A DNA stretch of 40,460 nt from a virus. The translations under genes were made by a program, and so were the position numbers. The notes under the pieces were generated by a model. It was not told where the DNA came from and did not search any database. It saw only the letters and a program-made list of their open reading frames with translations. Each line of letters begins with the position of its first letter. Position 1 is the stretch's first letter. The stretch is taken from the IMG/VR virus record IMGVR_UViG_3300020177_000019, positions 1 through 40,460 of that record; one strand, given 5' to 3'. Shown here piece by piece: positions 5,452 to 27,357 of the stretch.

Positions 5452-5821
5452 CTATCTTAACAGTATCAACAGCACAAAAAACAACATGATGCGCGACAGC
5501 GAAAATGATGAGATCGCTGAGAAAGAATATCCTGCCTTCCTAGTCAATCGCGGACTATCTTATTTTCAAGACACTATCTTTATGGCGAATGAGATGAATC
5601 GTTTCACTCATTTGGATAAAAAACTTCAATATGAGTTTTTGCTAAATATAATTAGACCACGTAAGAGATTTTCGAAGTGGTTCAAAAAAGAGCAGAACGA
5701 TGATATTGAGGCGATAAAAGAATACTATGGTTATAGTAATGCAAAAGCCCTTCAAACGTTACCTGTTCTTTCTGATGAGCAAATAACAATTATAAAAGAG
5801 AACCTACAGAAGGGTGGTTAA
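5438..5821 (+). CDS. 62: Clamp loader small subunit gp62
   Basis: 127 residues with the signature of the short gp62 found in marine T4-likes: NPFDYLNSINSTKNN at the start, then FLVNRGLSYFQDTIFMANEMN and RPRKRFSKWFKK. Gp62 is the single non-ATPase subunit of the gp44/62 clamp loader. It is much shorter than T4 gp62 (187 aa), a known trend in marine relatives. Gp62 is not adjacent to gp44 here as in T4 but is separated by four open frames. It is followed two bases later by regA. Confidence 0.88.
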   Translation: MNPFDYLNSINSTKNNMMRDSENDEIAEKEYPAFLVNRGLSYFQDTIFMANEMNRFTHLDKKLQYEFLLNIIRPRKRFSKWFKKEQNDDIEAIKEYYGYSNAKALQTLPVLSDEQITIIKENLQKGG

Positions 5822-19670: not shown

Positions 19671-19964
19671 ATGTCTAATCCATATGAACTGCGTTTTAAA
19701 GTCCTCGAAATGGCACGCGAACTCGAAATGCATCAATACGAGCAATTGATGAATTCTTACTGGTCGTTACACAATCAGGTAGAAAATATGCTCGCTTATA
19801 TCGATGGCAAAGTAGGAACTGAGTTTGACAGTGCTTATGAAAAATTGTATGATTTAAGTTGCCAACTCAAAGAAGCAATACCACCTATGCCGACATCTGA
19901 TCAAATCAATCAGAAGGCATCTGAACTTTATGAATTTGTTGAGCGAAAGCCTCAAAGACTATAA
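19671..19964 (+). CDS. Helical hypothetical protein, 97 aa
   Basis: Mostly alpha-helical with heptad-like spacing (YELRFKVLEMARELEMHQYE, then EKLYDLSCQLKEAIPP), so a coiled coil is likely. Ribosome site AAGGAGAC (19659-19666) is strong. A tandem AACGTTTAA repeat lies just before it. The last codons overlap the late promoter box that precedes the tmRNA. Function unknown. Confidence 0.65.
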   Translation: MSNPYELRFKVLEMARELEMHQYEQLMNSYWSLHNQVENMLAYIDGKVGTEFDSAYEKLYDLSCQLKEAIPPMPTSDQINQKASELYEFVERKPQRL

Positions 19965-19967
19965 ATA
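19960..19967 (+). promoter_or_regulatory. T4-type late promoter TATAAATA upstream of tmRNA
   Basis: A perfect TATAAATA spans 19960-19967. T4 late transcripts begin about 13 bases after the first T, predicting a start near 19973, immediately before the first helix of the permuted tmRNA. This makes late expression of tmRNA likely. Confidence 0.7.
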
Positions 19968-19972
19968 AAGTT

Positions 19973-20275
19973 ATTCGATGAAACATTGTAAATAAGAAGT
20001 GCGGACGCGGGTTCGAATCCCGCCGCCTCCACCATAAACACATTGGCACGGACGTACAGTGTCGAAAATAAGACCAGTGTGTTTATGATGGGGGCGTTAC
20101 GGAATCGACGGGCAACTGAAAGCAATGTGGAGAATCAGACGATGAACGCCGTCTGTATAAACAGGGTTCAAAGCAATAACTGCCAATGACGACAGTTACT
20201 ACGGAGACGTTCGCCTAGCGGCGTGATCTTCGCGGGGTGGCCACTACCTTGTTACCAAAGTGTGGCATTTTATTA
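19973..20275 (+). ncRNA. ssrA: Circularly permuted (two-piece) tmRNA
   Basis: The acceptor piece comes first: T-arm GCGGG (20007-20011), loop TTCGAAT, CCCGC, then acceptor strand CGCCTCC (20024-20030) and ACCA (20031-20034). The coding piece starts at 20090 with GGGGGCG, which pairs with CGCCTCC to give seven pairs with one G-U, followed by ACGGAATCGACGGG as in all tmRNAs. ACATTG (19983-19988) pairs with CAATGT (20123-20128) as the long helix. A resume-type TAACT precedes the tag GCC AAT GAC..., reading ANDDSYYGDVRLAA and stop TGA 20224-20226. The loop 20035-20089 forms a 13-bp hairpin to be removed. The two mature RNAs would tag stalled peptides for proteolysis with host SmpB. Confidence 0.9.
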
Positions 20276-20303
20276 TGACAATTAAAACTAGGAGGGTACG
20301 AAG

Positions 20304-20840
20304 ATGAGAATTCTTATACCACTGATGTTTTTATTATTCACTGTCTCATGTGATAATCAAATTGAATCGAATACAGAAGAACTTACCGAAATCGTTGTCA
20401 CAGCACAACGCCTGCCTGAAGTGCAAATCAATCCAGACGAACTAGAATGCCTCGCCGCGAACATCTATTTTGAAGCGAGAGGCGAACCACACCTAGGCAA
20501 ACTGGCTGTCGCTCATGTCACACTCAATCGAGTCCGAAGTAAATCATTTCCAAACGATATCTGCGGTGTAGTCTATCAAGCCAAGACTAATTCAAAAGGT
20601 AATCCTATCCGACACAAATGCCAGTTCAGTTGGTACTGTGATGGCAAGCGAGAAGTCATTGATGAAAAAGATAAATATGAAGAGATAAAACAACTTGCTC
20701 ATGAATTTTTATCTGCACCGAATGAAGACATTACAGACGGTGCTGAGTTTTATCACGCTGTCAGTGTGTCTCCATTCTGGAGAAAATCTTTTCAACAGAC
20801 AGTCGTAATCAATGACCATATTTTTTATAAAAAAGGATAG
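20304..20840 (+). CDS. SleB-like cell wall hydrolase, lipoprotein, 178 aa
   Basis: A lipoprotein signal (MRILIPLMFLLFTVSC, Cys16) is followed by a linker with a TonB-box-like TEIVVTAQR, then the hydrolase_2/SleB domain: ECLAANIYFEARGEP with catalytic Glu57, VAHVTLNRVRSKSFPNDIC and CQFSWYCDG. These enzymes cut peptidoglycan glycan strands. A lipid-anchored version would act from the outer or inner membrane late in infection. The ribosome site AGGAGGG (20290-20296) is very strong. It lies directly after the tmRNA and may share its late promoter. Confidence 0.83.
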   Translation: MRILIPLMFLLFTVSCDNQIESNTEELTEIVVTAQRLPEVQINPDELECLAANIYFEARGEPHLGKLAVAHVTLNRVRSKSFPNDICGVVYQAKTNSKGNPIRHKCQFSWYCDGKREVIDEKDKYEEIKQLAHEFLSAPNEDITDGAEFYHAVSVSPFWRKSFQQTVVINDHIFYKKG

Positions 20841-23045: not shown

Positions 23046-23813
23046 ATGTTATTTTATTTAATATTTTTTCCAATGGCTCTTGCAAGTTTAGTCTGGAGCT
23101 TGTTTAATGGTAGTTTTCATTTATGGATAGCAACAGCGGTATTTACAATCATGTACAGTGGTTATGGTGTTACTATAGGATTTCATAAACTGTTAAGTCA
23201 CAGACAATTTGAAACAACAGATACAATGAGAAAGATACTGACGTATCTTGGATGTCAAGGAGCGCAAGGTTCCTCTGTAACGTGGACATTGATACATAAT
23301 AGAAGTCATCACGCACATACAGACACAGAAAGAGATATGCATACACCGACTAAAGGAATATTGTATTCATTATTTGGCTGGATTTTTTATAAAGAGAATC
23401 ATGAATTCGCACATAAAGAATTATTTAAAATGAGAAAACAATTAGATCCGTTTGCACTGTGGTGTCATAAAAATTACGCTTTGCTGGTTATATTAAACTT
23501 ATTAGTCATTGGATTGTTAACTGGTTACATGTTTGGCAGTACATATGTTCTTGCAAGTTTGAATGCAAGTATTTTTAGTGTACTAGTTAGTGGCATAGTT
23601 AATTGGCTAGGACACTATCCTATTAAAGGATTAACATATGAAGATCATAAGATGAACAATAAAAGCACAAATAATCCTTGGGTTGTATTTTTAACGTGGG
23701 GTGAAAGTTTACATAATAATCACCATGCAAATCCTCGCAGACTCAATTTGTCCAATAGATGGTATGAATTTGATATTGGTCTTTGGATGACAAATCTAAT
23801 AAAGAAGAATTAA
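23046..23813 (+). CDS. Fatty acid desaturase (delta-9 type)
   Basis: 255 residues with the three histidine boxes of acyl-lipid/acyl-CoA desaturases: HKLLSH (47-52), HNRSHH (84-89) and HNNHH (223-227), which hold the di-iron centre. Hydrophobic blocks at about 1-45 and 143-190 give the four membrane helices. It introduces a double bond in host fatty acyl chains and could adjust membrane fluidity or lipid for late infection. Known as an accessory gene in marine T4-likes. Stop overlaps the next start (TAATG). Confidence 0.92.
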   Translation: MLFYLIFFPMALASLVWSLFNGSFHLWIATAVFTIMYSGYGVTIGFHKLLSHRQFETTDTMRKILTYLGCQGAQGSSVTWTLIHNRSHHAHTDTERDMHTPTKGILYSLFGWIFYKENHEFAHKELFKMRKQLDPFALWCHKNYALLVILNLLVIGLLTGYMFGSTYVLASLNASIFSVLVSGIVNWLGHYPIKGLTYEDHKMNNKSTNNPWVVFLTWGESLHNNHHANPRRLNLSNRWYEFDIGLWMTNLIKKN

Positions 23814-24757
23814 TGCAAAAAAACATTTATATCATCTGGCTTCAAGGATGGAATCAAAATAAAACACCTGCTGTCGTGTGGGAATGTGCTAGATCATGGA
23901 TATATCGAAATCCAGACTGGGACGTACATTTAATTTCTGATGAAAATTTGAAAAATTATGTTGAGGAAGAATACATCGAAGAAACAAAAAATGTTGAGCC
24001 TATTCAAGCAAGATGTGATCTTTTAAGATATCGAATATTATATAATAATCCTGGTTTGTATGTAGACGCAACTACATTCTGTTTGAAGCCACTTGACTCT
24101 TGGCTCAACGATTCGATGATAGTTGACAATTGCTTTTGGCTCACAGTGGGTCAAGAGAATCGCAAAATGAAGTTCAATTTTGGAACTGAAGTATTTTTTG
24201 ATACAGATTTTATTCCGTGCGTGACATTCCTTTATTCAGACGTTGAAAATAATCCTGTATATGACTCTAGAAATTTTGATAAGAAATACACAGAAAACTG
24301 GAAACATGATGCACATTGGGAAGAACATATTAACTTTCATTACTCTTACTTTAGATTCTGGCAGGCATTTGTTGACTGTACAGAATTAGAACTCAGAAAG
24401 AAAATTGCTAAGAATTGGCCATATAGATGGACAAAAAATAACGTATCTTGGCTGAGTGCGGGTAAAGACAAAGACGTAAAATTGCCTACTGGTGTGTATC
24501 AGATTATGAGTCCGTTTCTTATGTCTGAGAAAATAGATCGAAAATTTTTATATGATCTTGTGATGAAATGGTGGCCGTTCTTCAAACTTTCTGTCAAAAG
24601 GACTGATGAGATAAAAGACTGGCAATTTATTCCGAAAGAAAATAACAAGAAAAATCTTCTGTCGTTGGAAAAGCAGTATTCGAATGACAGCAAAATAGTC
24701 TTTCTAAAACAAGCACTTGATGAGGAGATAAAGAAGGAAGACGGGTTGACAAGATGA
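23813..24757 (+). CDS. GT32/capsular-polysaccharide-type glycosyltransferase, 314 aa
   Basis: IIWLQGWNQNKTPAVVWECA with WDVHLISDENLKNYV, then ARCDLLRYRILYNNPGLYVD with the acidic metal motif, follow the Gly_transf_sug/GT32 layout. I start it at ATG 23813, which overlaps the desaturase stop; the earlier TTG 23783 would give a longer N-terminus. The N-terminal half is the sugar-binding core and the C-terminal half may bind acceptor. Substrate unknown. Confidence 0.72.
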   Translation: MQKNIYIIWLQGWNQNKTPAVVWECARSWIYRNPDWDVHLISDENLKNYVEEEYIEETKNVEPIQARCDLLRYRILYNNPGLYVDATTFCLKPLDSWLNDSMIVDNCFWLTVGQENRKMKFNFGTEVFFDTDFIPCVTFLYSDVENNPVYDSRNFDKKYTENWKHDAHWEEHINFHYSYFRFWQAFVDCTELELRKKIAKNWPYRWTKNNVSWLSAGKDKDVKLPTGVYQIMSPFLMSEKIDRKFLYDLVMKWWPFFKLSVKRTDEIKDWQFIPKENNKKNLLSLEKQYSNDSKIVFLKQALDEEIKKEDGLTR

Positions 24758-27349: not shown

Positions 27350-27357
27350 TATAAATA
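27350..27357 (+). promoter_or_regulatory. T4-type late promoter TATAAATA upstream of hsp20
   Basis: A perfect TATAAATA at 27350-27357, with an AT-rich flank and in noncoding sequence. The expected start is near 27363, giving a leader of about 90 bases before hsp20. Confidence 0.75.

Follow-up and report, generated by a model that had tools for sequence, protein, structure and literature searches.

Circularly permuted (two-piece) tmRNA genes have already been published from phages. Buchholz et al. 2022 described the two-piece tmRNA of phage Melnitz (PMC9004378), and a survey of 18,146 genomes counted 53 two-piece forms among phage tmRNAs, 50 of which came from marine or aquatic samples (PMC9004378). 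A 2025 tmRNA database holds 79 bacteriophage sequences of all forms (PMC11915505). We found further permuted genes in phages Moby (Menderavirus), XacN1, Rb1, PHB04 and QDWS595 and in Mesorhizobium phage Cp1R7A-A1. Given these examples and the 53 published ones, the rarity ascribed to phage tmRNAs in an initial annotation of the DNA studied here was overstated, and the gene described below, although from an uncultured lineage, belongs to a class already known.

The Melnitz gene (Melnitz is an OM43 phage; PMC9004378) resembles the present one in being a permuted ssrA in a T4-like marine phage, but it was reported to be of alpha type, to lie downstream of an early promoter, to be linked to a glutamine riboswitch and to adjoin a transcription coactivator gene; the locus studied here is instead beta-like, has a late-type promoter and is followed by a SleB gene. 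The tmRNA of Stenotrophomonas phage Moby is likewise permuted and of beta type (94.6 bits) and carries a similar tag, ANDDSYTVRIAA, with R fourth from the end, but it belongs to a cluster of tRNA genes that precedes nrdA. Xanthomonas phages XacN1 and Rb1, Alcaligenes phage QDWS595 and Bordetella phage PHB04 also have permuted genes for which beta_tmRNA is the best clan model, although they represent other phage groups with other tags and contexts. About 1 kb past the permuted tmRNA of XacN1 there is a partial match to the GOLLD RNA (RF02032, 107.9 bits; L146, 2813–3036), which ends at the end of that stretch.

Architecture of the tmRNA gene

The window (the whole 40,460-base stretch of viral DNA analysed) had been read from its letters as containing a permuted two-piece tmRNA, with ARAGORN and permuted-model searches suggested as checks. 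Both return a permuted tmRNA. ARAGORN calls a tmRNA* at 19942–20317 (+) with the tag ANDDSYYGDVRLAA, and an Rfam scan of the window matches RF04321 (tmRNA_permuted) at 19972–20226 (+) with 99.1 bits and E = 2.8e-18, a score about twice the gathering cut-off of 47 bits. At the level of sequence these searches confirm the predicted circularly permuted gene at 19972–20226 (+).

The acceptor piece (19973–20034, +) comes first. Its 5′ end is placed by the start of the RF04321 match at 19972 and by covariation with the coding piece, and would be the first paired base, some 6 nt past the late promoter element described below. This piece comprises the 3′ strands of the inter-piece helices, the T arm (20007–20023, +), the acceptor 3′ strand CGCCTCC (20024–20030, +), the discriminator A at 20031 (+) and an encoded CCA at 20032–20034 (+), the last four read directly from the sequence; an acceptor arm and CCA thus stand ahead of the coding half, as first described. 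A 55-nt spacer follows (20035–20089, +), which is expected to be removed and which folds into a hairpin (z −2.96). A hairpin of 13 bp had been reported between the halves; the hairpin is there, but with 12 bp including one G–U, and 13 are reached only by counting A20034–U20086. The coding piece (20090–20271, +) contains the acceptor 5′ strand, the partner strands of the inter-piece helices, the tag region and a 3′ pseudoknot-like hairpin. Its 3′ end is approximate: the RF04321 match runs to 20226 and the RF01850 alignment to 20275, the latter taking in the GGGG...CCTTGTTACC...GTGGC region.

The acceptor 5′ strand GGGGGCG (20090–20096, +) pairs with CGCCTCC to form the 7-bp stem that the initial annotation had seen shared between the halves, and this stem includes G3–U70, the alanine identity pair. 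The 6-bp inter-half helix was also correctly read (ACAUUG at 19983–19988 with CAAUGU at 20123–20128), and beside it lies a second helix, AUUC at 19973–19976 with GAAU at 20132–20135. The tag reading frame called by ARAGORN, ANDDSYYGDVRLAA followed by TGA (20182–20226, +), opens at the resume codon GCC (20182–20184, +); it is short and ends in a hydrophobic -AA, as expected of a permuted tmRNA.

Several phage tags, among them those of the window, L121, L147 and L148, have R[L/I]AA at the end where ALAA is usual. The endings include VRLAA in the window (20209–20223), YRLAA in L121, VRIAA in Moby and LRLAA in Rb1, and EQRLAA closes many one-piece phage tags. Such endings might change the choice of protease.

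Among the models of the clan, beta_tmRNA (RF01850) fits the window best, with 63.7 bits and a full-length alignment (1–331) in a sensitive scan. The alphaproteobacterial permuted tmRNA (RF01849) has the same gene form, and its model, with a cut-off of 50 bits, gives 51.3 bits for a partial match only (model positions 40–268 of 355). In the sensitive scan the RNA thus comes closer to the permuted model of beta type than to that of alpha type, which corrects an earlier reading. With the betaproteobacterial tmRNA of RF01850 it shares the gene order, the tRNA-like domain and the 3′ hairpin with GGGG...CCTTGTTACC, but its score lies below the cut-off of that model (84 bits) and its spacer matches poorly. 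Because beta_tmRNA is the best of the clan yet stays under its cut-off, we term the predicted gene permuted and beta-like and do not assign it to RF01850. The beta model is also the best for six of the seven relatives scanned; L122 prefers alpha.

Phage and gene neighbourhood

The window encodes a T4-type clamp, a clamp loader, a gp43-type polymerase and UvsX, and the T4-like setting first proposed for it holds. Among named phages, the best polymerase matches share only about 48% identity and belong mostly to cyanophages and unannotated marine viruses; at this identity no cultured phage is close. The phage is T4-like, of an uncultured clade that is distantly related to phage T4, and neither the 1.4-kb locus nor the coding piece has a close relative among named phages.

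Immediately upstream of the tmRNA is a reading frame of 97 aa (19671–19964, +), which has no family match and whose stop codon overlaps the late promoter element. The next gene downstream encodes an endolysin-like, SleB-type cell-wall hydrolase (Hydrolase_2; 20304–20840, +; PF07486, E = 5.5e-24; phrog_938 endolysin, E = 9e-25). A SleB-type hydrolase is also the next gene in 12 related contigs, where it lies about 70–78 nt past the tag stop. ARAGORN places four ordinary tRNAs at 6.7–8.9 kb, apart from the tmRNA. No SmpB gene was found in the window or in four related records, so host SmpB would have to serve. Elsewhere, at 23046–23813, the window carries a fatty acid desaturase gene (PF00487, E = 1.1e-17).

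Conservation and covariation among relatives

A scan for the T-arm/acceptor motif matched 119 viral stretches, of which many carry a tmRNA of one-piece or permuted form, and the tag pattern ANDD[NS]Y[YF]G[DE] occurs in 29 viral stretches. G3–U70, A73 and CCA are present in 17 of 17 representatives. The tag is nearly fixed, and the relatives preserve its frame, its resume codon and its stop. The helices that join the two pieces vary in sequence, with both strands changing together (ACAUUG/CAAUGU, CUUG/CAAG, UUUG/CAAA, AUAUUG/CAAUAU and ACAUUAC/GUAAUGU), and in the alignment the first helix, AUUC/GAAU, becomes GUUC/GAAC in another branch. Inter-piece duplexes have a mean energy of −6.3 kcal/mol for true partners versus −2.3 kcal/mol for swapped ones. 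We take these to be compensatory changes that keep the inter-piece helices in the related phage loci.

The narrower tag pattern ANDD[NS]YYG[DE] (YYG only) is absent from 84,980 species genomes, and the gene is therefore not an obvious fresh host copy. Searches for a host with the tag and coding-piece patterns returned no match in the 84,980 genomes.

Two relatives have other features nearby. Upstream of the tmRNA in L041 is a reading frame with CxxCH and a signal-like start that looks cytochrome c-like by eye, and in L121 a manA RNA motif (RF01745, 63.4 bits; 5575–5791) lies 1.4 kb past the permuted tmRNA.

Late promoter and timing of transcription

The initial annotation had also put the gene under a late promoter. 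A T4-type late promoter element, TATAAATA, is located at 19960–19967 (+). We rejected this element on its own as promoter evidence, since the window contains four copies against 2.24 expected; comparative tests, and not its copy number, make it convincing. ATAAATA is found 63–66 nt upstream of CTCCACCA in most relatives (73 nt in L121). In G001, a 160-kb relative, 22 of the 54 ATAAATA copies lie at most 60 nt upstream of gene starts, no other 7-mer of that composition ranks above the motif upstream of genes, and its copies are split 46 versus 8 between the strands. The genes that follow it there include those for the portal, scaffold, major head, tail tube and head–tail adaptor. G001 also has a gene for a gp55-like late sigma factor (E = 1e-33), and the phage group accordingly has both a TATAAATA-like −10 element and, from G001, a gp55-type sigma; no gp55 was found in the window record, which is a 40-kb fragment. 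It was thus the comparison with relatives, through the near-fixed spacing, the ranking in G001 and its gp55, that lent support to the late promoter. The usual spacing from T4 late promoters to their start sites would put initiation near 19973, at the first paired base, so that no 5′ trimming should be needed.

Late control is not universal, since ATAAATA is absent at this place upstream of the tmRNA in L118, L122–L124, L129, L007, L041 and L067. Part of the conservation of ATAAATA could reflect coding constraint: the upstream reading frame of several relatives codes through the motif, and ATA and AAT are common codons there. As a sole cause this is insufficient: some relatives have the motif in phase with the upstream reading frame, and in others it is out of frame or contains or overlaps the stop codon. 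The codon bias (ATA, 40% of Ile; AAT, 78% of Asn) is by itself a weak argument on ATAAATA. Another copy, at 27351 of the window, lies about 72 nt ahead of a gene for a protein that at its start resembles the one, Hsp20-like by eye, encoded after ATAAATA in G001 at 24580.

The tmRNA could also be real but differ in timing, with expression early or all through infection from a sigma-70-like promoter or by readthrough, as proposed for Melnitz, with the late element mainly serving the hydrolase gene. A sigma-70-like site, TTGACA-17-TATGAT, is present at 19825–19853 inside the upstream reading frame; it matches 11 of 12 consensus positions with 17-nt spacing, and such a match was equalled in 1 of 200 shuffles. 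In Melnitz an early promoter precedes ssrA (PMC9004378), and in Moby the permuted tmRNA lies within a tRNA cluster. We nevertheless consider early expression unlikely at this locus, because the sigma-70-like site has no consistent place in the relatives, unlike ATAAATA, and because ATAAATA ends 5 nt ahead of the first paired base of the tmRNA and not ahead of the hydrolase gene.

Proposed function

We think it quite probable that the locus is a functional-looking, phage-encoded permuted tmRNA (ssrA) that is transcribed late, processed by the host, charged with alanine and used with host SmpB to rescue ribosomes. Sequence and comparison show the gene form, the helices, the promoter motif with its phage-wide use, and the gene order; we infer the start site, processing, charging, SmpB use and rescue during virion production. 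In this scheme host RNA polymerase, carrying a gp55-type sigma, would initiate late in infection at about 19973 and transcribe the spacer and the coding piece, to some extent reading on into the gene for the SleB-type hydrolase. Both halves of the acceptor stem would be kept together by the spacer hairpin. Host RNase P would cleave on the 5′ side of G20090 and trimming at the 3′ end would go as far as CCA20034, giving two pieces that stay associated through the acceptor stem and the inter-piece helices. This product would be charged by host AlaRS via the G3–U70 pair, and host SmpB would deliver it to stalled ribosomes, which would be released with the tag (A)ANDDSYYGDVRLAA added. Ribosome rescue during virion synthesis may reasonably be expected. 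With a late-type promoter ahead of a complete two-piece tmRNA and a lysis-type gene beside it, this uncultured T4-like clade makes the gain to a phage from its own trans-translation directly testable.

The same molecule might instead act as a decoy that titrates SmpB or AlaRS, blocking host trans-translation rather than rescuing ribosomes. The tRNA-like-domain-only molecule of phage DS6A has been discussed as inhibitor-like and may titrate SmpB (PMC4131195), and the lack of a detected phage SmpB is consistent with such a role. A decoy would, however, need neither the nearly fixed tag nor the resume codon and stop that the relatives keep, which makes this reading highly improbable. Least credible is a functionless captured piece of host ssrA or a decaying remnant, for example from recombination with the host gene: imprecise prophage excision can leave ssrA fragments in phage genomes (discussed in PMC9004378), but here every functional element is intact, compensatory changes keep the helices, the gene is kept in many related phages, and the YYG tag pattern is missing from the species genomes.

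Apparent exchange of the spacer

Spacer sequences are mostly unrelated between types, and their distribution does not follow that of the mature pieces (in pairwise comparisons the window spacer is counted as 56 nt, the first G of the coding piece included). The window and L115 are 88 and 86% identical in the two mature pieces and 100% in the spacer; L077 and L118 are 86 and 91% identical in the pieces and again 100% in the spacer. Conversely, L115 and L077 have pieces that are 100 and 99% identical and spacers at 55%, with no evident relation; L130 and L131 have pieces at 100 and 97% and spacers of 100 and 21 nt; and L072 and L006 have pieces at 100 and 98% and unlike spacers. Mapped onto a tree of the mature pieces, the seven spacer types require nine changes, the minimum being six, and well-supported branches force at least two changes for three of the types. 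Because this tree is short and many of its forks are weakly supported, we give more weight to the identity pairs. Some combinations of pieces and spacer recur in several contigs (the window and L078; L072, L083 and L059; L122–L124 and L129), which argues against chimeric assembly there; L115, L077, L118, L067 and L130 are single contigs.

From these patterns the spacer seems to behave as an exchangeable cassette among related phages, and homologous recombination in the near-invariant flanking sequences would be the simplest cause. In a partial search of the literature we found no report of spacer exchange. A free-standing mobile element was considered and rejected: the two spacer types searched were found only in viral contigs with these tmRNAs. 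Six longer spacers, one per type, each fold into a closing hairpin that adjoins the CCA (z −1.9 to −4.9), and the 21-nt type has none. It is conceivable, if doubtful, that the spacer is a cassette moving between phage tmRNA genes with a role of its own, as a released structured RNA or through the small reading frame of L058 and L127, and that it needs only the closing hairpin by the CCA for processing. Recombination of the spacer amounts to a natural experiment on the requirements for maturation of a two-piece tmRNA precursor, and the late-promoter setting and the exchanging spacer are the parts of this locus worth following. The spacer of L058 and L127 is 151 nt long, and its small basic reading frame (MRIQMKGGDEYDALSRKSKGLHRWRSGERKALKRKYNKRVRKTS...), for which no match was found in named phages, is accompanied by an AGGAG site and runs into the coding piece.
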